A stretch of DNA of 64,000 nucleotides from Pseudomonas cannabina (GTDB lineage Bacteria > Pseudomonadota > Gammaproteobacteria > Pseudomonadales > Pseudomonadaceae). Location: assembly GCF_900100365.1 (NCBI RefSeq), contig NZ_FNKU01000001.1, positions 1,674,001 through 1,738,000 of the forward strand. Reading direction: 5' to 3'. The translations under genes and the position numbers were made by a program. Below, one piece after another: positions 5,551 through 50,570 of the stretch (position 1 is the stretch's first letter; each line of letters begins with the position of its first letter). The notes under the pieces are model-generated. The model made no database searches. It was not told the origin of the DNA and saw nothing but the letters and a program-made list of their open reading frames with translations.

Positions 5551-5615
5551 TGTTTTTTTTGGGGATGAGCCGATCATGGACGCCCTGATTATTCCCGTCT
5601 AATCTAGTTTTTGAC

Positions 5616-11252: not shown

Positions 11253-11319
11253 GGTGTTTCCTCGGGTGACCGCAGCAAGGGTCACTTCTGATTGTTCTAT
11301 AGCCGTTTCGGCGTGACTG

Positions 11320-13424: not shown

Positions 13425-13553
13425 CGCTGCACAGTTCCTTTGCCAGATTGCCTATGTAGATTGCGCTGACGACTATCCTAGACTGGTTTCACTCGTATCG
13501 GTTAGCAGCGCGTCTGCAGACCATTGACCAGATTTTTCAGACAGGGCCCAAGC

Positions 13554-14309: not shown

Positions 14310-14434
14310 AGCGATCATCTGCTGAGCGTTGTTGGCAAACGTGATTTAATATCTGCATCGAGGCTCCCGGCCAAGGGTCAAACCTTTGCCGGGCGCCTGC
14401 TCATTTCATCAGATACTTTTCGCATAAGGCAACT

Positions 14435-14983: not shown

Positions 14984-15024
14984 GCCGCTTGATCGGTTTG
15001 CAACATTGCCTGTTTCATCCCTCC

Positions 15025-16053: not shown

Positions 16054-16438
16054 GGTTGTCGTTCCTTTGATTTTCGCCATCTCGGAAGGAGACGGGCTAA
16101 TGGCTCCCTGCCGCGTTTTATGAAAAACAGGCGGCATGGGGGCATTGCTTGCGAAAATCAGAACCAGATGACTTGTTGCAGGTACCAAAAAGCATTCGCT
16201 TGAGAATAGGGGCATTTCGTTCAGGCGAGTTCAACGATTGTTCTCAACGGCACAGACCCTTCATCGGAACCCTTGAACGGCGTGCCTGAAAAGACCCTCG
16301 ATAGTTCTGCGAGCGTTGAAATTCGTCTATTTCATACATGACGGACGCTGCCGCTCTTCACTCATGAATGCAGTCGAAGCTCAGCCATCGATGGCGCCCT
16401 TCAGTTTCATCCGGGACTTTTTATAGAAGGGAAACTCC
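16054..16438. other. Intergenic region between galE and the glycosyltransferase operon
   Basis: 385 bp between divergent genes. It must hold both promoters. I see no open frame of note, no convincing sigma-70 pair and no terminator; the only clear element is the AGAAGGGAAA ribosome-binding sequence just before 16439. Confidence 0.5.
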
Positions 16439-34164: not shown

Positions 34165-35309
34165 TGGCGGGTTTCCAGAATGGATTCAATGGCACAGACC
34201 ACCCGCTCGACATCATCGAGGGTCATGTCGGGGAACAGCGGAATGGAGCAAAGCCGCGACGAATTCCATTCGGTATCAGGCAAACGAACATCCGGAAATC
34301 GCTTGCGGTAGTAGCTGTGCAGGTGCGTTGCGATGAAATGGATGCCAGTGCCGATGTTTCGCGCCTGCAAGGCTTTCATGAACGCATCGCGATCCAGCCC
34401 GCAGCGCTCGGGATCGATGCGCAAAATGAACAGGTGCCAGGCGTGTTGTTGCGCGTAACGGGGCAGGGCGAGGGGCAGAACAGCGCTCTCGGCGAGACGC
34501 TGAAGGTAATGTCGGGCAAGCATCTGGCGTTTGGCGTTGATTGCATCCAGACGTTGCAACTGCACCCGCGCAATACTGGCATTAAGGTCTGCCAGGTTGT
34601 ATTTGAAGCCAGGTTCGATGACCTCGGCCTGGGGTTTTCTGCCCAGTGTCAGACGGTCGTACGCATCGACACCTAAACCGTGAAACTTCAGCTGCCGAAC
34701 GCGATCTGCCAACTGTGGGTCGTGGGTTACCAACATTGCGCCTTCGGCACAGGTCATGTTTTTGATCGCGTGAAACGAGAAAATCGCCGTGCCATGGCTT
34801 CCGATCGGACGGCCTTTGTAACCGGTGCCAACGGCGTGGGCGGCGTCCTCAATCACCGCAATCCCGTGCCGCTCGGCCAGCGTATAAAGCGGATCAAGAT
34901 CGAACGCCGCGCCAGCGTAGTGAACCGGAACGATAGCTTTGGTACGCGGGGTTATGGCGTGTTCGATCTGCGCTGCGCTGGTCATCAGAGTGTCGCGATC
35001 TACATCGACGAACACAGGAGTGGCACCCAGCAGACAGATCATGTTTGCCGTCGACACCCAGGTTTGCGACGGCGTAATCACCTCATCACCGGGGCCGATA
35101 CCGAGCGCAAGCAGCGCGACATGCATCGCTCCGGTGGCCGAAGACAGCGCAACAGCATGCCGGGCACCCACCCGTTCAGCGAATTGCTCTTCCAGTTTCT
35201 GACATTCAGGCCCGGTGGTGATCCAGCCGGAGCGCAGCACGCGAGTGACCGCGGCAATTTCTTCATCGCTCATGGAAGGGCGCGAAAAAGCCAGAAAAGC
35301 TTCGCTCAT
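34161..35309 (-). CDS. arnB: UDP-4-amino-4-deoxy-L-arabinose aminotransferase ArnB
   Basis: 382 residues from the ATG giving [17 protein letters not shown]; codons upstream belong to IS5. DegT/DnrJ/EryC1 fold with [21 protein letters not shown], the PLP Lys in [14 protein letters not shown], and the C-terminal [13 protein letters not shown]. First gene of the arn operon. An IS5-family element abuts at 35318 with its CTAG duplication from 35314, so only four bases of non-IS sequence precede the start codon and no purine-rich ribosome site remains (the IS end reads GCGCCTCCCTAGCGAC). Confidence 0.92.
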
Positions 35310-35317
35310 GTCGCTAG

Positions 35318-36526
35318 GGAGGCGCTGCAAAAATAGCCAACTGTCCCCACCCTTGGCACACTAAGTTCCTTCAACAGCCTCCCTCTCCGTGAGCGTTACG
35401 CGCGTGCAGAAGACCTTCTCCGAACTCGAATATACCGGCAAGAAAAAGCAGACTCGCCGAGATCGCTTCCTGGCTGACCTTGAACAGTTGGTGCCCTGGG
35501 CCCTGCTGGAGGCGCAAGTGGCGCCGTTTTATAGCAACACCGCAGGCAAGCGCGGACGCCCTGCGATAGGGGTGTCGCGCATGTTGCGCATGTACGTCGT
35601 GCAGCAGTGTTTCGGTTTCTCCGATGAAGGTTGCGAAGATGCCGTCTACGACAGCCAGGCCATCCGCGGTTTTATGGGTATCGACCTGGGTCGCGAGTCT
35701 GCACCGGATGCCACCACCTTGCTGCGTTTTCGCCGCTTGCTGGAAGTCCATCAGCTAACCCGGCTGCTGTTTGAAACGATTAACCAGCATCTGGCCAGCC
35801 GGGGGCTGCTGCTCAAGGAAGGCACTATCGTCGACGCTACTCTGATCGCCGCGCCGCCCTCGGTCAAGAACCGAGAAGGCAAGCGTGATCCTGAGATGCA
35901 TCAGGCCAGGAAAGGCAATCAATGGCACTTTGGGATGAAGGCCCACATTGGTGTAGACGCCACGTCGGGGCTGGTGCACAGCGTAGTAGGGACGGCCGCT
36001 AACGTGGCGGATGTCACCCAGGTTGGCCAGTTGCTTCACGGTGACGAAACCTATGTTTCGGGTGACGCTGGATACACCGGTGCGGCCAAGCGACCGGAGC
36101 ATGCTGAACGGGACGTTATCTGGTCGATTGCAGAACGGCCAAGCAGTTACAAGCAGCACGGCGAAGGCAGCGTGCTGTATCGGGTCAAGCGCAAAATTGA
36201 ATATGCCAAGGCGCAACTGCGTGCCAAGGTCGAGCACCCCTTCCAGGTAATCAAGGTGCGCTTCAATCATCGCAAGGTTCGCTACCGTGGGCTGGAAAAG
36301 AATACAGCGCAGTTGTTCAGTTTGTTTGGGTTGGCCAATCTGATGCTGGCCAAGCGGTATTTACAACAGACGGCAGGATAAATCCGTCTGAAAGGCGGGA
36401 CTGGCCCGCCTTTCAGCAAAATGAGGGCAGAAATCTGCTCGAGAAACGTAAAATAAGGCCGGCAGGTTGAAAAAAACCGGCTTGGAAATGGGGACGGTGC
36501 GAACGGGTTAATTGTTCAGCGTCTCC
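35318..36526 (+). mobile_element. IS5-family element, copy 1 (1209 bp)
   Basis: Ends GGAGGCGCTGCAAAAATAG (left) and GAACAATTAA...CAGCGTCTCC (right, reading GGAGACGCTG inverted), flanked by CTAG at 35314-35317 and 36527-36530. CTAG fits the YTAR target of the IS5 subgroup. The same 1209-bp element lies inverted at 38476-39684 and encodes an identical transposase. Its left flank is arnB; its right flank cuts the TnsE-like gene. Confidence 0.92.
35389..36381 (+). CDS. IS5-family transposase, copy 1
   Basis: 330 residues from a GTG (a second GTG five codons later gives the more usual QKTFSELEY start). Contains the N-terminal domain with SRMLRMYVVQQCFG and the DDE domain: DATLIAAPPS, VSGDAGYTGA, and a YrREK-type region KRKIEYAKAQLRAKVEHPF with the catalytic Glu. 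Intact and identical in sequence to copy 2, so probably active and recently spread. Confidence 0.9.
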   Translation: MSVTRVQKTFSELEYTGKKKQTRRDRFLADLEQLVPWALLEAQVAPFYSNTAGKRGRPAIGVSRMLRMYVVQQCFGFSDEGCEDAVYDSQAIRGFMGIDLGRESAPDATTLLRFRRLLEVHQLTRLLFETINQHLASRGLLLKEGTIVDATLIAAPPSVKNREGKRDPEMHQARKGNQWHFGMKAHIGVDATSGLVHSVVGTAANVADVTQVGQLLHGDETYVSGDAGYTGAAKRPEHAERDVIWSIAERPSSYKQHGEGSVLYRVKRKIEYAKAQLRAKVEHPFQVIKVRFNHRKVRYRGLEKNTAQLFSLFGLANLMLAKRYLQQTAG

Positions 36527-36530
36527 CTAG

Positions 36531-37200
36531 CCTTCCCCATTACAGGGTCGGCACCATTTGGCGCAATGGTCGCTGCATTTCTGACACCGAGCTCGACACC
36601 GAGAGGCTTGCGGTCAACTTCAATGCAGGGAAGTGGCGGACTACCTCACGCAGAGCGCTCATCGCTTCAGGTCAAGGGCACCTCTTTGCAGATGAGGAGT
36701 ATCCGCTAATCTTGGGAAACGACGATCGCTGCAAACTTCTCAACTTCTCAACTTCTCGCTCGATGATGGTCGCAATCTGCTGATCCCGTGCACCGAATAC
36801 TTTGTACGTGCCTATGCCAGAAACATGGAGATTTGCAGGGCTTTAGCCAATTTGCGCTGGAGCGATGTTTCTAACGTTCTTTTTCAGAACCCGGTAGCAG
36901 AACGTAATCTGCCAGTCTGGCTGGTTCGCCCCGGCCCGAGAATGCGTTTCTTCGATGCGGTGTTTCTGGCTCATATACTTTATGACCCACGCACAACCAG
37001 CGCTGTAAAGAGAGTGAATTCGCAGTTTATTTCCCAGTCACCGGGCAAGCCCATACTCCTCGAATGCCGACCCTGGCTCGAAGGCCCTGGTGAAATCCTC
37101 GCCCGGGGTAAATGGCTGAATGGCGGGAAAACGTTTTTGTGCTTGGATCTTATGGGAACGAACATGCCCAAAGGTCCGGAAGTTGAATTTCAGAAGCTAA
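36531..37200 (+). pseudogene. TnsE-like gene, fragment 1 (5'-truncated)
   Basis: Reads from the IS5 border as LPHYRVGTIWRNGRC..., then KLLNF, where an extra AACTTCTC (8-bp tandem duplication near 36742-36757) shifts the frame. It resumes SLDDGRNLLIPCTEYFVRAY, RPWLEGPGEILARGKW, FLCLDLMGTNMPKGPEV and ends at EFQKL, where the MITE/IS block enters at CTAA. No in-frame start codon exists between the IS border and the duplication, so the 5' end is missing. Compared from memory with Tn7 TnsE, the IP-x2-E helix, the RPW/GPxxxxxG segment and the C-terminal part line up. Details of the whole are under fragment 3. Confidence 0.65.
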
Positions 37201-37299
37201 GGAGACGCTGATTTATTCTAAAACCCAGCTGTTGCCCCCAGATAAATCAAGGCCTCCAGAGCGTTGCAGGGACGAAAAATCGAATAAATCAGCGCCTCC
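37201..37299. mobile_element. 99-bp MITE with IS5-type ends, copy 2
   Basis: Same 99 bp as copy 1 at 345-443, here flanked by CTAA (37197-37200 and 37300-37303). The neighbouring IS5 copy 2 shares the same CTAA target, showing stepwise insertion into one spot. Confidence 0.88.
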
Positions 37300-37303
37300 C
37301 TAA

Positions 37304-38472
37304 GAGGGTGTAGACAAAATCATGTAGTGAGTCGGCGCGCGAGTATTCGAGCCTCGGCCAACCAAACCCATGCCTCGCTTACCGCAAAAAGGCGATCATG
37401 ATGCATGATCAGTCGCCGAGCTCTCTCATTCCAGGCATGAGTTCGCTCCACTACCCATCGCTTGGGCATGACCACAAATCCAGTCTGAACAGGCTCCACG
37501 GAAAATAGATCGCCTTGTTCAGAGTGCCATTGCCCTGTTCTTCTGTTATTCGGGCCACGGATCACTTGAACATCGATAGCGTGCAGTTGATGGGTGCGCT
37601 GTGCCCATTTTCCTGCGTACGCACTATCAACAAAAAGCGTGCTCAGTGACGGATATTTTTCCTTCGAGTACGCCACCGCATCATCCGCCGCGTCACGATC
37701 CTGCACGCTTGCAGCACTGATACTGACAGCCAGCAGCAGGCCCAATGTATCGACAATCAGACTTCGTTTACGCCCCTTCACTTTTTTGCCTGCGTCGTAG
37801 CCGCTGTCACCGCCTTGAGGAGAACTGCGGGTCGACTGTGAATCCAGGATCGCTGCTGACGGGCTGTCAGCGCGTTCTTCCCGCTCACGCCATTGAGCTC
37901 GCAAGCGATCATGCATTTGCTCGAACTTGCCTTGAGCGCTCCACCGGCGGAACGTTTTGTAGACATTGTCCCAATGAGGAAAATCGCGGGGTAGCATTCG
38001 CCATGAGCACCCCGTGCGTACGACATAGCAACAGGCTTCCAGCAACGTGCGCCGAGAGTGAAGCGGTGGCACTCCTCGTCCGCCCTGGCTTTCAAACAGG
38101 TCGGCGACCAGTGCCCACTCGGTATCTGTCAAGCAACTCGGATATAGCTGCTCCGGCAGTTGGCGGCGGTGGGTTTCATTGTAGCCATAGGCTTTATTAG
38201 GTTCAGGTGACTGAAAACTTCCCTTGGCCCGCTGCTTTACACGCGTAATCCCTGCCATTTTCAACGCTTTTGCAAAGGTGTCGGGATGCGCAGTGATACC
38301 GGTTTCGGCGAAGAATACGAGCGCCAATTCGGCCTGGCTGGAATAGGGCTGTGCATGAGCGAGTTTCACCAGCACGGGATAGTGCTCGGCGGCAATCGAG
38401 CGAGGACGTCCGGTTTTAGGCATGGCTTGAGGGCAAGGGAGTGAAAGTTTAATTTATTTTGTCTACACCCTC
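37304..38472 (-). mobile_element. IS5-family element of the IS1031 type (1169 bp)
   Basis: Perfect terminal inverted repeats GAGGGTGTAGACAAAAT / ATTTTGTCTACACCCTC, flanked by a TAA duplication (37301-37303, 38473-38475), which fits the TNA targets of the IS1031 group. It entered the CTAA between MITE copy 2 and IS5 copy 2, so it is the youngest of the three. Confidence 0.9.
37320..38423 (-). CDS. IS1031-type transposase
   Basis: 367 residues: an N-terminal helix-turn-helix-like part (TGRPRSIAAEHYPVLVKLA) and a DUF4096-type segment (LTDTEWALVADLFES, RTGCSWRMLPRDFPHWDNVY). The DDE domain follows: AAILDSQSTRSSPQGG, LFVDSAYAGKW and WVVERTHAWNERARRL with the catalytic Glu. Full length, no frameshift, so likely functional. 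Confidence 0.85.
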   Translation of the reverse strand: MPKTGRPRSIAAEHYPVLVKLAHAQPYSSQAELALVFFAETGITAHPDTFAKALKMAGITRVKQRAKGSFQSPEPNKAYGYNETHRRQLPEQLYPSCLTDTEWALVADLFESQGGRGVPPLHSRRTLLEACCYVVRTGCSWRMLPRDFPHWDNVYKTFRRWSAQGKFEQMHDRLRAQWREREERADSPSAAILDSQSTRSSPQGGDSGYDAGKKVKGRKRSLIVDTLGLLLAVSISAASVQDRDAADDAVAYSKEKYPSLSTLFVDSAYAGKWAQRTHQLHAIDVQVIRGPNNRRTGQWHSEQGDLFSVEPVQTGFVVMPKRWVVERTHAWNERARRLIMHHDRLFAVSEAWVWLAEARILARRLTT

Positions 38473-38475
38473 TAA

Positions 38476-39684
38476 GGAGACGCTGAACAATTAACCCGTT
38501 CGCACCGTCCCCATTTCCAAGCCGGTTTTTTTCAACCTGCCGGCCTTATTTTACGTTTCTCGAGCAGATTTCTGCCCTCATTTTGCTGAAAGGCGGGCCA
38601 GTCCCGCCTTTCAGACGGATTTATCCTGCCGTCTGTTGTAAATACCGCTTGGCCAGCATCAGATTGGCCAACCCAAACAAACTGAACAACTGCGCTGTAT
38701 TCTTTTCCAGCCCACGGTAGCGAACCTTGCGATGATTGAAGCGCACCTTGATTACCTGGAAGGGGTGCTCGACCTTGGCACGCAGTTGCGCCTTGGCATA
38801 TTCAATTTTGCGCTTGACCCGATACAGCACGCTGCCTTCGCCGTGCTGCTTGTAACTGCTTGGCCGTTCTGCAATCGACCAGATAACGTCCCGTTCAGCA
38901 TGCTCCGGTCGCTTGGCCGCACCGGTGTATCCAGCGTCACCCGAAACATAGGTTTCGTCACCGTGAAGCAACTGGCCAACCTGGGTGACATCCGCCACGT
39001 TAGCGGCCGTCCCTACTACGCTGTGCACCAGCCCCGACGTGGCGTCTACACCAATGTGGGCCTTCATCCCAAAGTGCCATTGATTGCCTTTCCTGGCCTG
39101 ATGCATCTCAGGATCACGCTTGCCTTCTCGGTTCTTGACCGAGGGCGGCGCGGCGATCAGAGTAGCGTCGACGATAGTGCCTTCCTTGAGCAGCAGCCCC
39201 CGGCTGGCCAGATGCTGGTTAATCGTTTCAAACAGCAGCCGGGTTAGCTGATGGACTTCCAGCAAGCGGCGAAAACGCAGCAAGGTGGTGGCATCCGGTG
39301 CAGACTCGCGACCCAGGTCGATACCCATAAAACCGCGGATGGCCTGGCTGTCGTAGACGGCATCTTCGCAACCTTCATCGGAGAAACCGAAACACTGCTG
39401 CACGACGTACATGCGCAACATGCGCGACACCCCTATCGCAGGGCGTCCGCGCTTGCCTGCGGTGTTGCTATAAAACGGCGCCACTTGCGCCTCCAGCAGG
39501 GCCCAGGGCACCAACTGTTCAAGGTCAGCCAGGAAGCGATCTCGGCGAGTCTGCTTTTTCTTGCCGGTATATTCGAGTTCGGAGAAGGTCTTCTGCACGC
39601 GCGTAACGCTCACGGAGAGGGAGGCTGTTGAAGGAACTTAGTGTGCCAAGGGTGGGGACAGTTGGCTATTTTTGCAGCGCCTCC
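38476..39684 (-). mobile_element. IS5-family element, copy 2 (1209 bp, inverted)
   Basis: Same ends and length as copy 1 but in opposite orientation. Flanks are the TAA/CTAA at 38473-38475 and CTAA at 39685-39688. It interrupts the TnsE-like gene together with MITE copy 2 and the IS1031-type element. Confidence 0.92.
38621..39613 (-). CDS. IS5-family transposase, copy 2
   Basis: 330 residues, identical in protein sequence to the copy at 35389-36381, including all DDE residues. Identity of both copies suggests recent transposition or gene conversion. Confidence 0.9.
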   Translation of the reverse strand: MSVTRVQKTFSELEYTGKKKQTRRDRFLADLEQLVPWALLEAQVAPFYSNTAGKRGRPAIGVSRMLRMYVVQQCFGFSDEGCEDAVYDSQAIRGFMGIDLGRESAPDATTLLRFRRLLEVHQLTRLLFETINQHLASRGLLLKEGTIVDATLIAAPPSVKNREGKRDPEMHQARKGNQWHFGMKAHIGVDATSGLVHSVVGTAANVADVTQVGQLLHGDETYVSGDAGYTGAAKRPEHAERDVIWSIAERPSSYKQHGEGSVLYRVKRKIEYAKAQLRAKVEHPFQVIKVRFNHRKVRYRGLEKNTAQLFSLFGLANLMLAKRYLQQTAG

Positions 39685-39688
39685 CTAA

Positions 39689-40285
39689 AGTTCGACAGCA
39701 GCGAAGGTGTGGATGGCTTGGGAAGGCTCGTGCTGCCACGCCCAATCAAAAGCGCCGCTCTCGAAGAGTTTCTCCAAGAACGATCCACGGTTGAGCCGGA
39801 TCGGCATGCCGAAATCTATGAGGCGAAAGCGGCGCCTTTTAAAGTACTCGGCGCAAAGCGCCCAGTGAAGAAAACAAAATCCGTGGTGAAGGCCAACAAA
39901 AGCCGCCTTGGGCCAGCACCACCTGAGGCAGATGGAGTTTCCGCAGGTACCGGCACGGGAAGTGGAAAGCAAGTTGGCAAGTTAGAGACGGTATCGGATG
40001 AGGAGCATGAGGCTGCGCTCGACGTGGTGCTCGAAACCCAAGGCTTTTTCATGGACATCTGGAAAGCGCTCAAGTCGATTGGCGCTGAAAATCCGAAACA
40101 GATTCTGCGCGTGGACTGGTACACACCCGTGGCGCGATTCAGCAGTAAGCCGCCCCTCGGTATTGTTGAACTCGCGGTCGAAAATGAAGAGGATCTGCCA
40201 TCAGATGTGCGGTCCTGGCTGTATCTGGACCGGAGCGCTGGACTGCGACGAGGCATACTGATCGTGCGCATCAAAACCATCAAGG
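39689..40285 (+). pseudogene. TnsE-like gene, fragment 2
   Basis: Begins at the base after the right CTAA duplication and continues the frame of fragment 1 exactly (CTA AAG TTC: L-K-F). Reads DSSEGVDGLGRLVLPRPIKS, a low-complexity Lys/Pro/Gly linker (KRPVKKTKS, GTGTGSGKQ), then LETVSDEEHEAALDVVLE and SDVRSWLYLDRSAGLRRGIL up to VRIKTIK. There an IS1182 element inserted at AAGG. A stop just inside the IS would end a truncated product. Confidence 0.65.
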
Positions 40286-40321
40286 CAGACTGTGTGAAAA
40301 CACACTGATGAAGGCCCAAGC

Positions 40322-40353
40322 AAACGCCCCGACTTGTTCGGGGCGTTTTTTTT
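40322..40353. terminator. Terminator inside the IS1182 left end
   Basis: AACGCCCCGA pairs with TTCGGGGCGTT around a short loop, followed by eight T residues on the plus strand. It lies beyond the transposase stop and would stop plus-strand transcription coming from fragment 2. Confidence 0.75.
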
Positions 40354-40383
40354 GTATTGGCAGCAGACGAAAAAAATGTCCGC

Positions 40384-41808
40384 TCAGCCCATCAAAGCCA
40401 TCAGATGGCGCACACCGAGCACTTTAATCGCTCGTTTCAGGTTATAGGCATTCACCGCCAAGGCCATTTCAGCTTTTGTACCCTCCAGTTGTCGCAGCAA
40501 GAAACGGCCATTACCAAATAGCCATTGCTTGAGGTTGCCGAAGGGGTGCTCAACGATGGATCTTCGGTTGGCCATCATCTCAGGATGCGCCTGCATTCTT
40601 TGCTCCATCCGCTCGAAAGCCTCTTCATGGGCATGTCGTGAGACATAACGGCGCCGGGCTCGAGTGCATTGCGTTTTCAGCGCGCAGTTGGCGCAGTCAT
40701 CGACCTCAGCCTGATAGATCCGATCACCTTTGTTGTGCTGTTTTAGCGTTAACCATTTGCCTGCCGGACACTGGAAACGATCGTGTCCGGTCTCATAGAT
40801 AAAGTCTTTTCGCTCAAAGAGCTGCTCTTCCTGACTGCCAGGGTTTTTCGAACGATTGGGCGGTACATAGGCCGTAATCGAAGCATCCTCGCAGGCCTGA
40901 AACTGCTTGCCATTGGAGTAGCCGGCATCGGCAGTGACCGTCAGATCATCTTGCTGTAACTCTGCTTTGGCGGCCTTGGCCATCGGCTCCAGTTGCTTTC
41001 GGTCATCGCCATCTTGGGTGACCTCATGATGCAAAATCAGGCAATGCTCGGCGTCCACGACGGTTTGCACGTTGTAGGCCACACGTGGCCCTTTGGCCGT
41101 GCGCATCATTCGGGCATCGCTTTCATGGGTGTTGAACTGCTCGATGCCCATCGAACGCATCAGTGCCTGGCAACTCTGATTATCCTGTTGTCGAGCCTCA
41201 AGCTGTGCCAGGGCTACCTTGATTGCGCTGCGATCAATTGAATCTGTGGTTTCAGCCTTGTCGGCCTCATCCAGCTCGGCCAGATACTGAGCGATGCGCT
41301 TATCCAGTTTTTCTTCCTGGCGCTTGAGCTGCTTCAAATTCACATGACGCCGTGAGGATGCGACCGCCTGAAACTTGCTGCCGTCGATGGCCACCAACTC
41401 ACCGGCGATCAAGCCTGCCGTGCGACAAAACCGAACGAAAGCACGGCAGGTCGCGATGAAGGCGGGTTTATTGTTCTTGCGAAAATCGGCGATGGTCTTG
41501 AAGTCGGGCTTGAGCCGGTTGATCAGCCACATCACTTCGATGTTGCGCTGACACTCGGCTTCAAGACGTCGCGATGAGCGAATCCGCTGAAAATAGCCGT
41601 AGAGGTAGAGTTTTAGCTGATCGGCGGGATCATAAGCAGGGCGCCCCGTGCTTTTTGGAATCGCTTTATCGAAGCCCAGTTGCACCAGATCGAGCCTGGC
41701 AACGTACAGGTCAATGACACGAACGAGGTGATCCTCGGGGATCAACTCTTCCAGCGAGACCGGGAATAGGCTGGTCTGGCTGCGGGACTCACCTTGGATG
41801 TAGGCCAT
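40384..41808 (-). CDS. IS1182-family transposase
   Basis: 474 residues beginning MAYIQGESRSQTSLFPVSLEE in two stretches; 12 upstream codons would run into the hairpin. DUF772 N-terminal region (STGRPAYDPADQLKLYLYGY), catalytic motifs VAIDGSKFQAV, TVTADAGYSNG and a C-terminal Cys-rich part (DCANCALKTQCTRARRR) followed by NRRSIVEHPFGNLKQWL with the last acid. Full length and apparently intact. Confidence 0.88.
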   Translation of the reverse strand: MAYIQGESRSQTSLFPVSLEELIPEDHLVRVIDLYVARLDLVQLGFDKAIPKSTGRPAYDPADQLKLYLYGYFQRIRSSRRLEAECQRNIEVMWLINRLKPDFKTIADFRKNNKPAFIATCRAFVRFCRTAGLIAGELVAIDGSKFQAVASSRRHVNLKQLKRQEEKLDKRIAQYLAELDEADKAETTDSIDRSAIKVALAQLEARQQDNQSCQALMRSMGIEQFNTHESDARMMRTAKGPRVAYNVQTVVDAEHCLILHHEVTQDGDDRKQLEPMAKAAKAELQQDDLTVTADAGYSNGKQFQACEDASITAYVPPNRSKNPGSQEEQLFERKDFIYETGHDRFQCPAGKWLTLKQHNKGDRIYQAEVDDCANCALKTQCTRARRRYVSRHAHEEAFERMEQRMQAHPEMMANRRSIVEHPFGNLKQWLFGNGRFLLRQLEGTKAEMALAVNAYNLKRAIKVLGVRHLMALMG

Positions 41809-41813
41809 AACGA

Positions 41814-41847
41814 AAAATGCTCTGTATCTTTCGATACGGAGCATTTT
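41814..41847. promoter_or_regulatory. Long hairpin directly upstream of the IS1182 transposase start
   Basis: AAAATGCTCTGTATC pairs with GATACGGAGCATTTT (15 bp, one G-U pair) with a TTTC loop, six bases from the ATG. In transcripts entering from outside, the stem would cover the ribosome site, a known way for insertion elements to avoid activation by host transcription. Effect here is inferred. Confidence 0.6.
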
Positions 41848-41888
41848 CTTTGAGCGCTGCGCAGATTGCTAGGTTTTCACACAGTCTG

Positions 41889-42179
41889 AAGGGCAACTAT
41901 TTTTGCGTCGAGGTTCAGCGCAAGGACGGCAAAAAAGGTGAAATACCCCCCGGATCTGCCGGACTGTTGATGAAATTCAGCGAAAATGAAGAGGCGTTCA
42001 AAAATTTCGTCAACGAGCTGTGCCGAAGAATCGTTGGCTACAGAGGGGTGTTCAGCAAGCTCAACAAGCTCTACCCAGCAGACTACGTCACCTTCAACCA
42101 CGGCAAACACGATAAAGAAATTCTTTACCGGAGCATCCTCATCAACAAATTCAGCGAGCTTGGGATCACGCTCAGCTAA
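41889..42179 (+). pseudogene. TnsE-like gene, fragment 3 (C-terminus)
   Basis: After the AAGG duplication the frame of fragment 2 continues as GNYFCVEVQRKDGKKGEIPP, MKFSENEEAFKNFVNELCRR and ends KFSELGITLS. Joining the three fragments without the duplications gives 1545 bases, exactly 515 codons with stop. This is close to the 538 residues of Tn7 TnsE, with about 30-50 residues missing at the 5' end. The C-terminal block (PRV-like strand, Arg/Lys strand, FCVEVQRKDG strand, helix EAFKNFVNELCRRIV) resembles the TnsE C-terminal DNA-binding domain as I remember it. It converges on the transposition genes, unlike in Tn7. Confidence 0.65.
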
Positions 42180-42339
42180 CCTGGATCTCTGTCCCGTCAC
42201 CACTAGTGTCCCGCGGTGGTCAAGCGCGAGAGGATTGAGGTTTCAGCAAGCTTTTTCCAAGGAAGACCGCCATGCCTGTAAATCTCCACGTGGCAGTCAG
42301 GTCGAAAGCAAACAGCAGGTCAGCCTCCATGACTCACCA

Positions 42340-43785
42340 TCATTCTTCTATGGTTCGCTCATAGGTGCTCGCTGATGGCACCCAGAGCCCCCTTTGTGAG
42401 CATTCGATGTTGAATCCAGCAGTCCCCTGGTAGGTTGCCGGCGTATATACCAGCCCCTTGCGACTGACCCTGCCAATCCCATGGAAATAAGCCAAGGCTT
42501 TAACGATCCATCGTGACTCAAAATCGCTAGTCTCGTCGCGTTGTGGCAGCAATTCGACAAGCTCTCTCTCGCGCTTCGCTTGTTTCTGTTGCCTTGCCCA
42601 CCTCGGATCCGGGCGAGAGTTCAGCCCTGCGTTGTAGACCTGATTCAAGTACCCGACGAACCCCGTGACACTTGCCACATGCCCCGGCGACTTACGCCAA
42701 TAGCCGTCGAGTACTTTCTGGTCAATCATGGCGGCAGCCTTCAGTCGCGAATGATCCAGAAGGTCAGAAGCAGATCGCAAGGCGAGCCTGATGGACCGTA
42801 AACTGATGTCACCGGCCGCCAGCCGACTTTGCAACATACGGTGATAACCAGTGATCAACTGCTGAGGCCAAGACTCTCGGGGTTGCTCCATGATGCCCTG
42901 CACACGTCGGTGCTCCGAATCCTCCTCACGGGCTTGTTCGCACACCACTAATCCGTCGAACTCGCTCAGCCAGCTCATCGGCACACGAGAACGGCGCAAT
43001 CCTTCGGCTGAGAAATGCCGCAGCAGCTGAGAGTACTGAGGCACACCCTGCCAGACGTTTTCGAGCTCTTTAAAGAACTTGTAATAGGTGTTGATTTTCA
43101 AGGCCGCAGCCTTGGGTCCGAGCTCAAGCAAAACCCAGTTTCCGAAACGCTCAAATCGCTGCGCCATAGATAGCACGCTTAAACCGCTGGTATTGATTGC
43201 CAGGCGCTTTTGGAAGGTTCGCTCCCAATAGCACCTCTCACATTCCTTGCCTCGCCCGGCTGGTGTGCTGACACCACAAGTCGCGCACGCAAGCACACCC
43301 TGCTCAATGCATACCTTGCAGCGCTTGCGACCATCAAGTTCCGAAATCAGTACGCGATGGCGCCGGCAATCAGGACAGGTTTCGGCAGCAGGGCCGCTGC
43401 ATTTTGGGCAGAGCAATCTGCCGGTCAGCGAGTTCCTCGCTGTTCGCTGAGAAAGCGTTCCACAGGCGTCACAGATTGCCGGTTCACGAAAGTGCACTGC
43501 GCAGGGTTTGCATACAGGCCCATAGGGGGTGATCCGCCCTATCTTAAAATCGACTTTGTTGCATCGGGCACAAGAACCGCGTCTTAAACAGGCACTGCAG
43601 CGAGCGGTCTTATCGAATGTCGGGAGTCTGGCGAAATTGCCACAGGCAGGACATAGTCGACGCTTGAACAGCCGCGGGTAGCAGTTGCCGCAATAGCGCT
43701 TTTCTTGGTAAATCCTCTTAGGCTGCTCAATGGCACGGCCGCAGCCGTCGCATTCACAGCGAGCCAAATGTTCAACGGATACCAC
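42340..43785 (-). CDS. Cysteine-rich zinc-ribbon protein of the Tn7-like element (candidate target selector)
   Basis: 481 residues. About the first 205 residues carry at least ten CxxC pairs (ECDGC, YCGNC, LCPAC, RCSAC, SCARC, VCKPC, ICDAC, LCPKC, TCPDC, RCKVC, ACATC, ECERC), so a string of zinc ribbons. The rest is helical; DLLDHSRLKAAAMIDQKVLD and ASVTGFVGYLNQVYNAGL look like the helical DNA-binding domain of tyrosine recombinases. No Arg-His-x-x-Arg-Tyr catalytic set is visible. It overlaps tniQ by 14 bp. Its place as fifth gene is that of TniE in Tn6022-like elements. A selector related to the recombinase-derived TnsF type is an attractive guess, not shown. Confidence 0.55.
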   Translation of the reverse strand: MVSVEHLARCECDGCGRAIEQPKRIYQEKRYCGNCYPRLFKRRLCPACGNFARLPTFDKTARCSACLRRGSCARCNKVDFKIGRITPYGPVCKPCAVHFREPAICDACGTLSQRTARNSLTGRLLCPKCSGPAAETCPDCRRHRVLISELDGRKRCKVCIEQGVLACATCGVSTPAGRGKECERCYWERTFQKRLAINTSGLSVLSMAQRFERFGNWVLLELGPKAAALKINTYYKFFKELENVWQGVPQYSQLLRHFSAEGLRRSRVPMSWLSEFDGLVVCEQAREEDSEHRRVQGIMEQPRESWPQQLITGYHRMLQSRLAAGDISLRSIRLALRSASDLLDHSRLKAAAMIDQKVLDGYWRKSPGHVASVTGFVGYLNQVYNAGLNSRPDPRWARQQKQAKRERELVELLPQRDETSDFESRWIVKALAYFHGIGRVSRKGLVYTPATYQGTAGFNIECSQRGLWVPSASTYERTIEE

Positions 43786-44893
43786 GTCGTCTGACCTTTC
43801 GTTTCAGTCGCAACCACATACGCAGCGTTTGCGCGGGGCTACTGGGATGTTCACGGTCAACACCGCTCACCAGATGATGCCTGGGCGACTGCAATGCGGC
43901 GACCAGATCCAGCAAAACTGGAGGAGAACCACTGGTGGGTAAATGCAGCGTCGAGGCTGGAAGTGACTCATGCCGTGCCGCTTCGATAAATCTTTGTGGC
44001 CCGGCTGACATTATCACCCACACGATGCTGAGCAGGACAGAGCGCTCAGCGGGAGACAGGTATTCAAGGGGCAACCCCAACGGAATCGGTTGAAGGGACT
44101 CAAGCGGTATACCTAGTGATTCGAAGAATCTTTCAGCCGCAGCGCTATGGCGACGCACTGCTGCCTGAGCAAAGCTCACCAAAGTTCGTGCAACAGTTAA
44201 CCAATCGCGAAAGTCGAGTGGCGATGAGCCGTACAAGGGCCAGCGGCCAATGTTTTCGTCCACGTATATCTGGAAAGCCAGCGCAGCTTCTGCAGCGTCG
44301 CACCGAGCGCCATCGCTTAGCGCAGCACCGCACCTGTAGCAATCACTGAGCGAAGCACCGGCTCTCAGCAGCTCCGGTTGCATAGGCGCCAGACAATGCC
44401 CGCACCGCTCAATCAACTGCACCCCATGTATAGGGCAGCAGGTATGCCAGGCCAAACGCCACTGGATGAAAAAACGTGAATTGGATTGCGCAATGCAATC
44501 CGGGCAGCATTGCAGCCCTCCGCTATGATGACCGCCTCGACAACCCAGTACCGTCAGCCAAGGCCAGCTTGCGCGCAGTAATCTGTGCGGCTGACGCACA
44601 ATCGAAGTCATAACATTTTTGAGGGTAGCAGACTGCAAGCTTGCGCAGGGCACACCCGACTGCTTACTCAGAACCGCAAGCCTACTCACTGAAACAGATC
44701 GATCCAAATCACTTGCCCAAGCCCTAGTGCCAGGCCATGCGATTGCTGTCAACGCTGCTGGTGAGCAGCCGTGAGCCAGAGCCATCCTGATAATCCAGGA
44801 AGTCAGAAGCTCGTCCGTAAGCAGCGGTTTACTAAGAGGCCAGACCGGGTTTACAGAGACTGCTCCCGGATGCCACGAGTAGGACGCAACCAT
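43772..44893 (-). CDS. tniQ: TniQ/TnsD-family targeting protein
   Basis: 373 residues. The N-terminal PLLTDELLTSWIIRMALAHG is the TniQ signature, followed by the zinc segment CCPDCIAQ...WHTCCPIHGVQLIERCGHC (Cys/His pairs). The C-terminal half is helical with no clear helix-turn-helix. At this length it is larger than minimal CRISPR-associated TniQ and smaller than Tn7 TnsD (about 508). It bridges TniB/TnsC to a target recogniser. Overlaps tnsC by 43 bp and the Cys-rich gene by 14 bp. Confidence 0.85.
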   Translation of the reverse strand: MVASYSWHPGAVSVNPVWPLSKPLLTDELLTSWIIRMALAHGCSPAALTAIAWPGTRAWASDLDRSVSVSRLAVLSKQSGVPCASLQSATLKNVMTSIVRQPHRLLRASWPWLTVLGCRGGHHSGGLQCCPDCIAQSNSRFFIQWRLAWHTCCPIHGVQLIERCGHCLAPMQPELLRAGASLSDCYRCGAALSDGARCDAAEAALAFQIYVDENIGRWPLYGSSPLDFRDWLTVARTLVSFAQAAVRRHSAAAERFFESLGIPLESLQPIPLGLPLEYLSPAERSVLLSIVWVIMSAGPQRFIEAARHESLPASTLHLPTSGSPPVLLDLVAALQSPRHHLVSGVDREHPSSPAQTLRMWLRLKRKVRRRGIR

Positions 44894-45741
44894 GACATGC
44901 TCTCGATGAGTTCTATGTCAATGCATTCCTTGCCGGAGACTATGGCCTGCTTCGAGCACTCCATCAGAAGCCGGTGTACATTCCCAAGGTTACCGCCGGA
45001 AATCGCGTGTACACGCCGAGCCTTGTCTGGATGTGCCAGCCCAGAAGGCTTTTTCAAAGGCAGTATCGACTCAAAGCCTTTGAGCATGCGCTGAAATTCG
45101 GGATCGAGCTTCCATTGATCGAGCTTGATAACATCGAAGCGACTGGCATGTTGTGGATCATGATGGAGGATGCGAACAGCATCCGTGGTTCCAACACCAA
45201 TGATTGGAATCACCAGCTCGTTGCAGAGGGACTTCAAAGCGTTCATCACCTCACGCTGCTTGATTGCAGAGCCTGTGAGCAATGAATGGAACTCATCAAT
45301 GATCAGCATTCTGACCTTAAGCTCGCGGAAGGAGTGAATAACCTGGTAGCGCAACGCCAACTTGGTATCCGTGATCCTGTAAGGCATCCATAGCTGTTCC
45401 AAAAGAGCCACATACAGCGCCTTCTCGTCAGCAGTCGATGGGGCCTCTGCCAAAATCAGGGGGCGGACCGGATCATCATTTTCGTCGACGTACCCTTCGC
45501 CATGCGTTTTCTGAAATCGCCTGATAACGGTCGTCTTACCGTTATTGGAATCCCCCACGATCAGCAAATTAGGCATGCGGGCTCGCTTGGGCATGACAAT
45601 CAGATCATTGAGCGTGTCGAGGATTGTGCGAGCCAATGCATAACCTATCCAACGTTCCTCTCCTATGAAGAGGATCCGTTCCCGGTCGCTCAACTGCAAC
45701 ACTGGTCGAAAATCAGGATGGATGTGGTCGTATGTGCTCAT
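44851..45741 (-). CDS. tniB: AAA+ transposition regulator TniB/TnsC
   Basis: 296 residues, a compact AAA+ ATPase. Walker A GDSNNGKT at 63-70, Walker B MLIIDEF at 145-151, sensor GVGTTDA, and an arginine in ASRFDVIKL. At this length it is like TniB of Tn5053 rather than the 555-residue TnsC of Tn7. It polymerises on DNA and links target selection to TnsB. Start overlaps the tnsB stop by ATGA. Confidence 0.9.
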   Translation of the reverse strand: MSTYDHIHPDFRPVLQLSDRERILFIGEERWIGYALARTILDTLNDLIVMPKRARMPNLLIVGDSNNGKTTVIRRFQKTHGEGYVDENDDPVRPLILAEAPSTADEKALYVALLEQLWMPYRITDTKLALRYQVIHSFRELKVRMLIIDEFHSLLTGSAIKQREVMNALKSLCNELVIPIIGVGTTDAVRILHHDPQHASRFDVIKLDQWKLDPEFQRMLKGFESILPLKKPSGLAHPDKARRVHAISGGNLGNVHRLLMECSKQAIVSGKECIDIELIESMSWLRPTRGIREQSL

Positions 45742-47666
45742 TCGACTTCACCTGTCGATTCGACTTCCGAAAGCATAAGCAGGTCAGAATCCTCCTGCAC
45801 GAGATCCAGCACCAGCTTGGCTACGGGCTTTGTGGGTTGGGCCGGTGTACCTTTCTTGCTGTGGGTACGACTCTTCTGAGCGTCTTTGCGAGCTCTCTTG
45901 CTGGTCGCAGAAGCCTCCTCGACTAGCTTTCGGTTTTCGACGGCGTACTCGGCGATCAATGCATCGTCAATGTTCCCCCGCCCTTCGCTGACAGCTTTAT
46001 CCTTGGCAGCGTGATATTCCCAAAGCGTCACCGCAGGGAATGCCTGGTATGAGGCCGGTACGCGAAAATACTGCTTCAGAACAGGGTCATAGAACCAAAT
46101 GACGCTGACATCCCTCGGGTCACGCCTGAAGAGCAACTTGATTGCCTTCCCGGTCGCGGGATCCTTTTGATTGATCCAATGACGCAGCGCTTCGGAATAG
46201 TAGAACAGATCCCACTGCACACCGTACGTCTGCACAGTCCTGCGAACCGATGGTAGGAAATCCAACTGGACAGCCAAAGGATCGGTGGGCCGCGCCGGCA
46301 CACTGACCAGAGGATCAACCTCCCGATTGCCGAAGAACGCCAACTGCCACTTGCGAGCAGGGCTCATGTGGATCTTTTTGTGATAGGTCTGGTGGTACTT
46401 CAAAATTGATCGAACCAGCCATACCTCGAATTCCGCCATCGTGAGAACGGCTTTAGCATCCGAATCATAGCCCTCGCGTTCCTGAGGGTTACTGAAGGTA
46501 GTGCCTGGCAGCTCATGCACCATTCTCATGAAAGTGCCAAGCACCCGCTCAATTCGACCACCGTATTTTGGAACTTTGGATGGCCGGAAGACGCTGTCTA
46601 TCCCGTAGTTCTTACAGGAATCCACGATGTTCTGCGCCCGGAAGTCAGCACCGTTGTCAGTATGAATTGTTCGTGGAAACCCCCAAACAGGCCATTCACC
46701 ACGAATGTCGTGAGCAGCCAGCCAAGCCTCCTTGGGAAGTATTGAATGTGCGATGCACATCGCCACAGATGTCTCGGAAGGCGCCTCGAACGCCAAGTAG
46801 TAACCAACGATCATGCAGGAGTAGACGTCGATGGCGAGGGTGAGCCAAGGCCGGCCAATTGGCTTACGATGTCGTTCGTCCACCACAATGAGGTTGACCG
46901 GGGTATGGTCGATCTGCACAACGGCCAGCGGATAGCCCTCATCCGGAAACTGTCCGACTGAAGGAGTGTGTCTGTTGTTCGCCTGCTCGGCATAACCACG
47001 CCGACGAAGCTTCACCACCTCGGGAATCTGCCTAATCCGCGCCCTGATAGCAGATGCGCCAGGAGGCTGGATATCGAGCGCTCGCGCTCTGCGCTCAATC
47101 TCCGAAATCGTGGACTGAACCGTGTACCTCTGCACCGTCAGGTAGTAATCATCCAGCACGTCCTGTACGAGCTTTTCTCCTTCGACAGAAAGACGTGTGC
47201 TGCCCTCGCGCCAACCGCGCTTGCGCGGAACAAGAGCCAGAACCTCATTCCATCGACTGTAACGATCCAGCCAACGATAAAGGGTTGCCGGGCTGATCCC
47301 GGTGGCCTTCGCACGCGCTGCCACTGTCTCTTTGGACAACACCGTGTTGCCCAATAAAGGCAGAATCGCGGAATAGCGCTTTTGCGCTATAGCCCAGGCA
47401 TCCGAACTGATGCTGCTGATATCGTGGTTAACGTACAGCCCGTCCAGTTTCTCCGGATCTACAGCTCTGAGGTCGATAATTTGAAGGGCCGCACTGCGGC
47501 CCGTCTCGACCTCGGTCCCGATCACCGTTTGTAGATCTAGGATTTGAACGATCCGGTAAATTTCCTTGTCCCGGCGCACCATCGCGCCGACTTCAATGGC
47601 AACGCGTGACCGAGCAGGTTCAAACGGAACCAGGTGCTCGCTGGTGTCGTCTTCATACAGTTTCAT
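45738..47666 (-). CDS. tnsB: DDE transposase TnsB/TniA
   Basis: 642 residues. N-terminal helix-turn-helix domains (ATGISPATLYRWLDRYSRW near 120-140) bind the transposon ends. The RNase H-like core has Asp253 (QIDHTPV), Asp337 (HTDNGADF) and Glu373 (GGRIERVLG). A beta-barrel and Lys-rich tail follow (KRARKDAQKSRTHSKK). It joins 3' ends to the target. The start overlaps the tnsA end by 14 bp. All catalytic residues are present. Confidence 0.93.
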   Translation of the reverse strand: MKLYEDDTSEHLVPFEPARSRVAIEVGAMVRRDKEIYRIVQILDLQTVIGTEVETGRSAALQIIDLRAVDPEKLDGLYVNHDISSISSDAWAIAQKRYSAILPLLGNTVLSKETVAARAKATGISPATLYRWLDRYSRWNEVLALVPRKRGWREGSTRLSVEGEKLVQDVLDDYYLTVQRYTVQSTISEIERRARALDIQPPGASAIRARIRQIPEVVKLRRRGYAEQANNRHTPSVGQFPDEGYPLAVVQIDHTPVNLIVVDERHRKPIGRPWLTLAIDVYSCMIVGYYLAFEAPSETSVAMCIAHSILPKEAWLAAHDIRGEWPVWGFPRTIHTDNGADFRAQNIVDSCKNYGIDSVFRPSKVPKYGGRIERVLGTFMRMVHELPGTTFSNPQEREGYDSDAKAVLTMAEFEVWLVRSILKYHQTYHKKIHMSPARKWQLAFFGNREVDPLVSVPARPTDPLAVQLDFLPSVRRTVQTYGVQWDLFYYSEALRHWINQKDPATGKAIKLLFRRDPRDVSVIWFYDPVLKQYFRVPASYQAFPAVTLWEYHAAKDKAVSEGRGNIDDALIAEYAVENRKLVEEASATSKRARKDAQKSRTHSKKGTPAQPTKPVAKLVLDLVQEDSDLLMLSEVESTGEVE

Positions 47667-48348
47667 TATCGGGGACCCACAGTTCGAGATCGTGGTTCAG
47701 AGGTTCGGTGATGTCGCAGTCGACCTGACGCGTGGCGATCAAGTGCCAAAGCAGCGACACGCCCCGGTCACGGAAAATACCATTGAAGTGCCGTGCCAGA
47801 AGGTAGTGCACTGGGGCGACTTCCATCTCACGCAGCGTCTTCAACACAGCAACGATGTCGCCTTGTTCAAAAATCATTCGCTCGAAACGTTCCAGGAACA
47901 CAATGTTTTCGAGCGGGAGACCGCGAATGCGCGATTCATCATAAATGCGGAACTGCCACCCCTGGCTACGGGCCAACCGGCGAGCCTCCTTCCATTTACC
48001 TGACCAGTCTCGCCAATTTTCTACCCATTGCTCCCTCGGCTTGACCTCCACCAGCAGCGGTTGCATTGCGCCGAAATAGGGCAGGTGCTGCTGGTGATAG
48101 AAAACAAGGTAATCAGGAGTGTAGATCTGGGGACGGCCCAAAGAGTCGGTGAAAGGAACCTCAACCGGTTGGGAGATAACCGACTCGACCTGGTGAGAGA
48201 ACCGCATCCGTTTCAAAAAATCCCTTTCCAACGACGATTCGAAAGCAACACCACCGAGCCCCTTGAAAGCCATCACTCCTGAAATGCTACGGCGAGTCGG
48301 CTTGATCTTCCGGACCGGTTTAATTTGGTCGCATTTATTTCCGATCAT
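47653..48348 (-). CDS. tnsA: TnsA-family endonuclease (5'-strand cleavage)
   Basis: 231 residues. The restriction-enzyme-like catalytic set is present: Glu41 (ESSLERDF), Asp79 (YTPDYLV) and Lys103 in LLVEVKPRE. A C-terminal helical domain with EQGDIVAVLKTLREME follows. TnsA cuts the 5' ends so that with TnsB movement is cut-and-paste, unlike TnsA-less relatives. The first gene of the operon; its start codon lies inside one of the TnsB-site-like repeats at the transposon end. Confidence 0.9.
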   Translation of the reverse strand: MIGNKCDQIKPVRKIKPTRRSISGVMAFKGLGGVAFESSLERDFLKRMRFSHQVESVISQPVEVPFTDSLGRPQIYTPDYLVFYHQQHLPYFGAMQPLLVEVKPREQWVENWRDWSGKWKEARRLARSQGWQFRIYDESRIRGLPLENIVFLERFERMIFEQGDIVAVLKTLREMEVAPVHYLLARHFNGIFRDRGVSLLWHLIATRQVDCDITEPLNHDLELWVPDNETV

Positions 48349-48460
48349 TTTTTATCTGGTCTCATTTATTACCGACATTCTTCTCAGTAATTTCAGAAGC
48401 GTTTTATGGCCAACAAAGGCCTCTAGCCTAGCCCTTTCTCAGTTATTTCGAAAGCCGACA
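48326..48460. mobile_element. Right end of the Tn7-like transposon with TnsB-site-like repeats
   Basis: Two close repeats TGGTCGCATTTATTTCCGAT (48326-48345) and TGGTCTCATTTATTACCGAC (48357-48376), and another pair TTCTCAGTAATTTCAGAAGC (48381-48400) and TTCTCAGTTATTTCGAAAGC (48436-48455). All share TCTCAnTnATT-like cores, as expected for multiple TnsB sites. The end base is 48460: read inward it begins TGTCGGCTTTCG, with the TGT of Tn7-type termini. Five bases outside (CTGGC) would be the target duplication, but the partner end is not present. Confidence 0.75.
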
Positions 48461-48561
48461 CTGGCATCAACAACAATGTTCAGGTCGAAATCATCGACGG
48501 TCTCGCCGAGGGCGACCGCGTAGTGATCGGTGATCCGGCTGCCGCCGTGGCGGGAGCCTGA
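48461..48561 (+). pseudogene. 3' remnant of a macA-type membrane fusion gene
   Basis: Thirty-three codons remain after the transposon end: GINNNVQVEIIDGL, EGDRVVIGDPAAAVAGA and stop, the typical C-terminus of a MacA/RND-like periplasmic adaptor, two bases before the macB start. The 5' 90% of the gene is missing from the window. In P. syringae such a macA stands between the syringafactin synthetase genes and macB. Confidence 0.8.
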
Positions 48562-48563
48562 GC

Positions 48564-50570
48564 ATGAATCAGAAGGTAGACACTGCGGGCCTGCACGATA
48601 CGCGGCTCGACAGCGACCGACCGCTGCCGCACCTGCAAGGCGTCAGCCGCAGCTTCATGGCGGGCGAGCGCGAGTTTCAGGTACTCAAAAACATTGATCT
48701 GGCCATTAATGCAGGCGAGCTGGTTGCGATCATCGGTGCGTCTGGCTCGGGCAAGTCGACGCTGATGAACATCCTCGGTTGCCTGGACCACGCCAGTACC
48801 GGCAGCTATCAGGTCAATGCTCAGGAAACGCGTGACCTCGATGACGATGCGCTGGCAGCACTGCGCCGTGACCATTTTGGCTTTATTTTCCAGCGTTACC
48901 ATCTGCTGCCGCACCTGGACGCTGTGCGCAACGTGGAGATTCCGGCGGTTTACGCCGGCACGCCGCAGTCACAGCGTCATCAGCGCGCTCAGGCATTATT
49001 GACGCGTCTCGGGCTGGGCGGGCACCTGGAGCACCGGCCGAGCCAGATGTCCGGCGGTCAGCAGCAACGCGTGAGTATTGCCAGAGCCTTGATGAACGGC
49101 GGTCAGGTGATCCTCGCCGACGAACCGACCGGCGCGCTGGACACAGCCAGTGGGAAGGAGGTCATGCGCATCCTGCTGGAACTGCACGCCGCCGGGCATA
49201 CGGTGATTCTGGTCACCCACGACCCCAAAGTCGCGGCCCACGCCGAGCGCATCATCGAGGTCAGCGATGGCGAAATCATCAGCGACCGGCGCACCGCCTT
49301 GCAAACGCTGAACGCCGCCGAGCCACAAGAGGCCACTCAGAAGAGCCTGGCGCCGAGACGGCTGGTCGCCGGTTTCGGGCTGTTTCGCGAAGCCTTCAAT
49401 ATGGCCTGGATCGCACTGATTTCGCACCGTATGCGCACGCTGCTGACCATGCTCGGTATCATCATCGGCATCACCTCGGTGGTGTCGATTTCGGCCATCG
49501 GCGAAGGCGCCAAACGCTACGTGCTCAAGGACATCCAGTCGATCGGCAGCAATACCATCGACATTTACGCCGGCAGCAACTTCGGCGACAGCCGGGCCAA
49601 GTCCATCGAGACCCTGCTGCCCGCCGACGTGGCGGCGCTCAATCAGCTGTATTACATCGACAGCGCGACCCCGGTCGTCGGGCGCAGCATGCTGGTGCGC
49701 TACCGCAATATCGACGTCGATGCGCAGCTCAACGGCGTCAGCAATCGCTATTTTCAGGTGCGCAACATCCAGCTGGCGGCAGGCATCACCTTCAGCGAAC
49801 AGGATGCGCGGCGTCAGGCGCAGGTCGTGGTGCTGGATCACAACACCGCGCAACGCCTGTTCGGGGCGGGCGTGAATCCGCTGGGGCAAGTGATTCTGGT
49901 CGGCAAGCTGCCATGTACGGTGATCGGCGTGACCAGCGATCACAAAAACCTGTTCATCGCCGGTAACACCTTGAATATCTGGATGCCCTACGAAACAGCG
50001 GCGGGACGTCTGCTGGGCCAGCGCCATCTGGATAGCATCAGCGTGCGGGTCAAGGACGGCATGCCGAGCAAGGCCGTCGAAGAACAGATAAAAACGCTCA
50101 TGCTGCAGCGCCACGGCACCAAGGACTTCTTCACCAATAACCTAGACAGCGTCATGCAGACCGTGCAGAAGACCAGCCGCTCACTGACCCTGCTGCTGTC
50201 ACTGATCGCGGTGATATCACTGGTGGTCGGCGGCATAGGCGTGATGAACATCATGCTGGTGTCGGTCACCGAACGCACCCGCGAGATCGGTATACGCATG
50301 GCCGTGGGGGCACGCCAGTCGGATATTCGTCAGCAGTTTCTGGTGGAAGCAGTGATGGTGTGCCTGATCGGAGGGGTGATCGGCATCGGCCTGTCCTACG
50401 GCATCGGTTACCTGTTCACCCTGTTCGTAAAACAATGGGAAATGGTCTTCTCTCTGGCCTCGGTGGTCACGGCATTTGCCTGTTCGACCCTGATTGGCGT
50501 GCTGTTCGGCTTTGTACCGGCACGCAATGCCGCACGGCTGGACCCTATCGAAGCACTGGCGCGGGACTGA
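48564..50570 (+). CDS. MacB-type ABC transporter (lipopeptide export type)
   Basis: 668 residues. N-terminal ATPase with Walker A GASGSGKST at 58-66, Q loop FIFQRYHLL, signature MSGGQQQR at 162-169 and Walker B VILADEPTGALD. Then a membrane helix (LLTMLGIIIGITSVVSISAIG), a periplasmic domain, and three C-terminal helices with ERTREIGIRMAVGARQSDI, the FtsX/MacB module. With an adaptor (MacA) and TolC-like channel it exports peptides or lipopeptides. Its partner is reduced to 33 codons and its promoter region is replaced by the Tn7-like element, so function is doubtful despite the intact frame. Confidence 0.88.
   Translation: MNQKVDTAGLHDTRLDSDRPLPHLQGVSRSFMAGEREFQVLKNIDLAINAGELVAIIGASGSGKSTLMNILGCLDHASTGSYQVNAQETRDLDDDALAALRRDHFGFIFQRYHLLPHLDAVRNVEIPAVYAGTPQSQRHQRAQALLTRLGLGGHLEHRPSQMSGGQQQRVSIARALMNGGQVILADEPTGALDTASGKEVMRILLELHAAGHTVILVTHDPKVAAHAERIIEVSDGEIISDRRTALQTLNAAEPQEATQKSLAPRRLVAGFGLFREAFNMAWIALISHRMRTLLTMLGIIIGITSVVSISAIGEGAKRYVLKDIQSIGSNTIDIYAGSNFGDSRAKSIETLLPADVAALNQLYYIDSATPVVGRSMLVRYRNIDVDAQLNGVSNRYFQVRNIQLAAGITFSEQDARRQAQVVVLDHNTAQRLFGAGVNPLGQVILVGKLPCTVIGVTSDHKNLFIAGNTLNIWMPYETAAGRLLGQRHLDSISVRVKDGMPSKAVEEQIKTLMLQRHGTKDFFTNNLDSVMQTVQKTSRSLTLLLSLIAVISLVVGGIGVMNIMLVSVTERTREIGIRMAVGARQSDIRQQFLVEAVMVCLIGGVIGIGLSYGIGYLFTLFVKQWEMVFSLASVVTAFACSTLIGVLFGFVPARNAARLDPIEALARD

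Follow-up and report, generated by a model that had tools for sequence, protein, structure and literature searches.

The 64,000-nucleotide window analysed here (Pseudomonas cannabina contig NZ_FNKU01000001.1, positions 1,674,001 to 1,738,000; coordinates below are those of the window) contains a transposition operon whose right end abuts the remnant of a macA gene. With a probability of roughly 93%, we read it as part of a Tn6022-family Tn7-like transposon whose usual target, comM, is filled in the same genome by a complete copy, and the copy in macA as a secondary product of this machinery, inserted at an unrelated site and with its left end later lost. Five overlapping minus-strand open reading frames (ORFs) at 42340–48348 encode TnsA, TnsB, TniB (TnsC), TniQ and a Cys-rich fifth protein, TnsF, giving the tnsA–tnsB–tnsC–tniQ–tnsF operon of the Tn6022 family. 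This operon is present at two places in the genome, both at 100%; aligned over 41889–48460, the two copies have 0 mismatches in 6,572 bp. The second copy is a complete element of 23,857 bp that starts with TGTCGG, ends with CCGACA and has GTGGC on both flanks, a 5-bp duplication. It interrupts the ComM reading frame; the intact relative of this gene in the nearest sampled genome (G326) fits the YifB Mg-chelatase-like family, and YifB we take to be ComM. The matching ends, target duplication and comM insertion of the Tn6022 family are found in this second copy, whereas the window copy has no left end and lies in macA.

Insertion sites of relatives were compared, as a preliminary description of this DNA had proposed, across a sample of 398 Pseudomonas genomes out of a larger group. 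TnsA (E ≤ 1e-20) was found in 26 of the 398 genomes, at 28 places, and comM adjoins 24 of these (21 within a 1.5-kb flank and 3 more with flanks of 12–15 kb); comM, not macA, is therefore the usual target. Among the survey flanks, a macA tail lies beside the window copy only. The junction base in comM, read by eye across the 24 places, is the same in 20 and within 2 bp in 3. One element (L020) has only 20 residues of comM beside it; at another place (L049, genome G136) comM continues through the usual junction base, and this element may have its junction at another point in comM or not be joined to comM. The four places without comM are the window (macA), a 114-kb contig and two contig-edge pieces of one genome. 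The 114-kb contig (G245 C2; L033 and L051) encodes a distant TnsA (36% identity), has no comM in the adjoining 19.9 kb and possibly represents another Tn7-like family on a plasmid.

The right end of the transposon (48329–48460, minus strand) carries the terminal TGTCGG, read inwards, and the two copies are identical to 48460 and differ at 48461. Four repeats resembling TTCGAAATTAATGAGA (≤4 mismatches), located on the identical comM copy, lie in the right end and two in the left end of the comM copy; they are putative TnsB sites, with the appearance expected of them. Rightward of 48460 follow a C-terminal piece of macA and then macB. The macA 3′ tail (48461–48561, plus strand), recognized by its identity with the macA tail of relatives, opens with CTGGC (48461–48465, plus strand), the expected 5-bp target duplication, whose left-end partner is lost. 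The ORF at 48564–50570 has MacB as its best NCBIfam fit (934.5 bits, below the cut-off of 966), and macA is named from the upstream protein of a relative, which fits NCBIfam MacA. The tail runs collinear with macA in G326, where the gene is intact (96% over macA tail and macB); beyond this tail, a search of the genome for other pieces of this macA gave paralogues at ≤40% identity and nothing closer. The left end (338 bp as query) has a single match in the genome, within the comM copy, so the window copy should no longer move by itself, although its five core genes are open. Of the preliminary description of 42340–48460 as a transposon that had landed in macA, the overlapping operon stands (ORFs and Pfam), as do the right end at exactly 48460 and the macA tail beyond it. 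The span is not the whole element, however, because this copy lacks its left end and because tnsE remnants, with several insertion sequences, continue left to 35314, and macA is a secondary site, the homing target being comM.

The five genes, all on the minus strand, fit this assignment. TnsA (47653–48348; 231 amino acids (aa)) is a TnsA-like endonuclease (Pfam Tn7_TnsA-like_N, E = 2.9e-16) with motif stretches TPDYL at 77 and VEVK at 100. TnsB (45738–47666; 642 aa) is a DDE transposase with Pfam matches to rve (E = 5e-7; 30.4 bits, below the cut-off of 32.6) and Mu-transpos_C (2.2e-6) and with IDHT at 252, HTDNGADF at 335 and IERVLG at 372; among solved structures it matches PseTnsAB (E = 4.5e-44), Tn6677 TnsB (5e-44) and Tn7 TnsB (2.4e-16). 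TnsC/TniB (44851–45741; 296 aa) is a short AAA+ ATPase (Pfam TniB, E = 1.4e-74) with Walker A at 63 and Walker B at 147. We take the located stretches in TnsA, TnsB and TnsC to carry the catalytic residues. TniQ (43772–44893) has 373 aa (Pfam TniQ, E = 9.5e-19), and the fifth gene (42340–43785) encodes 481 aa. Trees of TnsC and TnsB (12 rows each, Tn7 not being among them, with long branches flagged in both) carried out the phylogenetic check suggested earlier: the window TnsC falls with Tn6022-type TniB of Acinetobacter and Klebsiella and separately from Tn402-like TniB, with support of 95/94, and the TnsB tree gives no firm grouping at its deep fork (70/74). The earlier view of a Tn7-like, Tn6022-like element combining TnsA with a Tn5053-size TniB was right.

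The Cys-rich fifth gene (tniE/orf3) is tnsF, encoding the known target selector of Tn6022. Its protein has no family match in Pfam or NCBIfam. Cys pairs run through residues 11–184, followed by a tyrosine-recombinase core-binding-like domain (approximately 303–391) and a short C-terminal beta sheet; the AlphaFold model has a fold match to tyrosine-recombinase core-binding domains. The family feature of N-terminal zinc fingers joined to a tyrosine-recombinase-like part without the full catalytic domain is present. There are 274 relatives at E ≤ 1e-3, 18 cysteines are invariant among TnsF relatives, and Acinetobacter plasmid copies are 31–34% identical over 94–98% of the query (among 40 of 71 records listed). 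In the available sections of Faure et al. 2023 (PMC10293859), TnsF (formerly tniE/orf3) directs Tn6022 into comM, and transposition of AjTn6022 from A. johnsonii needs TnsF, which pulls down TniQ and binds and targets comM. By analogy, TnsF would work here as in the A. johnsonii element: TnsA and TnsB would cut and join the ends, TnsC would link both to TniQ, and TnsF, as a zinc-finger protein with a presumably inactivated tyrosine-recombinase-like part, would bind the target and bring in the machinery. The suggestion that this is a less-described system thus falls, given that TnsF was characterized experimentally in 2023 and that the family target, comM, holds a complete copy in the same genome; close kinship to a characterized transposon with known targeting, which was to count against novelty, largely applies. 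A Klebsiella pneumoniae IncA plasmid also carries Tn6022-type tns genes (L067:5989–11813); there the fifth protein is shorter (390 aa, 32% identical to TnsF), and an IS1-like element follows.

The macA flank was considered as a TnsF-like site and rejected, being unlike the comM attachment site both by matrix ranks and in alignments against random stretches. A position matrix was built from 22 comM sites, leaving out L020 (comM cut short), L049 (comM uninterrupted) and six loci that repeat the same places; its scoring covered 327,546 positions of the fetched G000 sequence, counting both strands. Counted from the top, the macA flank ranked at 3.6% for its first 8 bases, 14.5% for the first 20, 6.8% for all 76 and 45.9% for the Walker-B part; in local alignment with comM, 4,613 of 4,986 random stretches did at least as well as the macA flank at its best. 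The flank is least comM-like at the Walker-B stretch, the part of comM that TnsF needs according to the available sections of PMC10293859. The same sections report that 96.7% of AjTn6022 insertions in Escherichia coli without a target plasmid were on comM, so approximately 3% were elsewhere, and AbaR islands of the Tn6022 type lie at diverse sites (PMC7253598, as far as its text was accessible). Because of these stray insertions and diverse sites, an off-target event is sufficient to account for the insertion in macA. Literature searches found no publication on a macA insertion of such an element. A more specific idea, which we put forward only tentatively and consider possible rather than probable, is that comM-homing TnsABC–TniQ–TnsF machinery, with comM filled and tnsE broken, inserted at a site without comM likeness by overflow or relaxed targeting that needs neither a TnsF attachment site nor TnsE. 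A natural comparison is offered by a chromosome that holds identical machinery both at its proper target and off target, and the macA site may help to define the limits of Tn6022 specificity.

As in the Tn6022 family, tnsE lies on the strand opposite to the operon; here it is broken, with remnants across 36529–42173 (plus strand). Using a full-length relative (L052) as the tblastn query, we located a C-terminal part at 41883–42173, a middle part at 39685–40290 and an earlier part at 36529–37202 (matches in two frames), all on the plus strand, whereas the window copy has nothing that matches approximately the first 88 residues of the L052 frame. An intact tnsE relative had no match in Pfam, NCBIfam or PDB, and the name is used because two relatives at 48% identity carry the source name TnsE C-terminal domain-containing protein and because of position and strand. 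An IS1182-family insertion sequence (40285–41889, minus strand; transposase ORF 40384–41844; NCBIfam IS1182, 424.5 bits) interrupts tnsE in the window copy only and is not at this place in the comM copy. Comparison of the two copies also assigned the insertions at 37195–39687 to the window copy only: a short repeated element (37195–37303), an IS5-family element (37289–38490; NCBIfam IS5_3 for 37320–38423) and a second one (38472–39687). A further IS5-family element (35315–36530, plus strand; NCBIfam IS5_4, 335.6 bits) forms the left boundary and adjoins an ORF (34164–35303) identified as ArnB by NCBIfam. This boundary element and the adjoining tnsE stretch recur in the comM copy, likewise contiguous and with 100% identity, suggesting that the element entered before the copies separated and that TnsE was already broken when the second copy was made, although later gene conversion could have had the same outcome. 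In the comM copy (element positions 12657–16120), IS5-family elements form a cluster that splits tnsE, and an early tnsE part, unmatched in the window copy, is kept beyond this cluster.

In G326, arnB is found approximately 43 kb past macB and points the other way, which means that from macA onward the segment is inverted in this genome. The inversion relative to G326 (window 35315–48460, flanks to 88475) has one breakpoint at arnB, on the upstream side, and the other at the macA insertion. On the G326 contig, macA is preceded by 9.36 kb made up mostly of a nonribosomal peptide synthetase (NRPS) gene, and this stretch has only short matches in the present genome (≤88% identity), nearly all in one other region. 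We infer that macA was hit by transposition, and the probable order of events is that comM-homing machinery made the macA copy as a secondary insertion and that a later IS5-linked rearrangement removed the left end, the 5′ part of macA and the sequence upstream. A Tn6022 insertion would then mark a boundary of genome rearrangement at which macA has lost most of its length.

The same losses, namely the left end, the 5′ part of macA and the NRPS region that precedes macA in the relative, could also mean that a large rearrangement or an assembly join set the right end beside the macA tail; the inversion next to arnB and the abundance of near-identical IS5 copies in this genome point the same way. 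The junction, however, coincides with the very last base of the element, and past it the macA sequence stays collinear with the intact gene in G326. Recombination between IS5 copies could account for the left boundary, but it would not explain why a breakpoint falls precisely on the right terminus, and we consider such a rearrangement or assembly join unlikely.

If the intact operon in macA is taken by itself, it could represent a distinct Tn7-like lineage dedicated to macA, in which the fifth gene would be a new selector for this target. Identical machinery occupies comM in the same genome, comM adjoins 24 of the 28 related places whereas the macA tail adjoins the window copy only, and the macA and comM sites have no resemblance, all of which makes such a lineage very unlikely. 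Descent from a Tn5053/Tn402-type replicative element that acquired tnsA would account for the size and family of TniB, and TnsB also matches TnsB of type V-K CRISPR-associated transposons (8rdu, 7svw), which presumably lack TnsA. Tn402 and Tn5053 are not known to have TnsA, and Pfam identifies TnsA here. The window TnsC groups instead with Acinetobacter Tn6022-type proteins, and TnsF, the position of tnsE and comM residence are Tn6022 features, with TnsF and comM residence also found in relatives; this origin is exceedingly improbable. The window copy is an ordinary member of the Tn6022 family, and its only unusual point is that it is a second, truncated copy at a non-comM site.

The comM copy carries additional genes (locus L004). 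Beside its left end is an anti-phage dCTP deaminase (10329–11891, minus strand; NF041025, 474.8 bits, cut-off 400), and a GajA–GajB pair (Gabija) lies at 2950–6842 (minus strand; PADLOC E = 8.3e-242 and 3.9e-222); both agree with Tn7-like cargo as described in the accessible parts of the published literature. A type III effector-like protein (7581–8615, plus strand) joins an XopO/AvrRps4-type N part (201 bits, below the cut-off of 300) to an XopAK-type C part (217.5 bits, cut-off 150), an architecture described for HopK1 in the source text available. A TcmP (three-Cys-motif partner) gene is present in two pieces (209–1316, minus strand), and a similar-looking long ORF, judged by eye, lies past tnsA in L016, L017 and L028.

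Among known systems, Tn6022 itself is the closest. Like AjTn6022 as presented in the available sections of PMC10293859, the element has the gene order tnsA–tnsB–tnsC–tniQ–tnsF, tnsE on the opposite strand, insertion in comM, a short TniQ (373 versus 369 aa) and a TnsF of similar length (481 versus 498 aa) with a Cys-rich part followed by a tyrosine-recombinase-like part. Unlike Tn6022, tnsE is broken in both copies, one copy is truncated and in macA, and TnsF has only the 31–34% identity to Acinetobacter plasmid copies (among the records listed). According to the accessible text of Horton and Gassmann 2024 (PMC11116571, citing Peters et al. 2014), a 24-kb Tn6022-like element carries the hopK1 gene of P. 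syringae pv. tomato DC3000; given its size (23,857 bp) and its cargo protein of HopK1 architecture, the comM copy is probably the same element, from which the present case differs, as that text describes it, by the second copy in macA. AbaR-type islands of A. baumannii are likewise Tn6022-derived and mostly in comM, with Tn6022-type ones also at other sites and on plasmids, whereas host and cargo differ and macA is not among the sites met in the available text of PMC7253598. Tn402/Tn5053 elements share the TniB-size ATPase and TniQ, but no tnsA or tnsF is annotated in the copy examined (L061), and their TnsC lies in the other branch.
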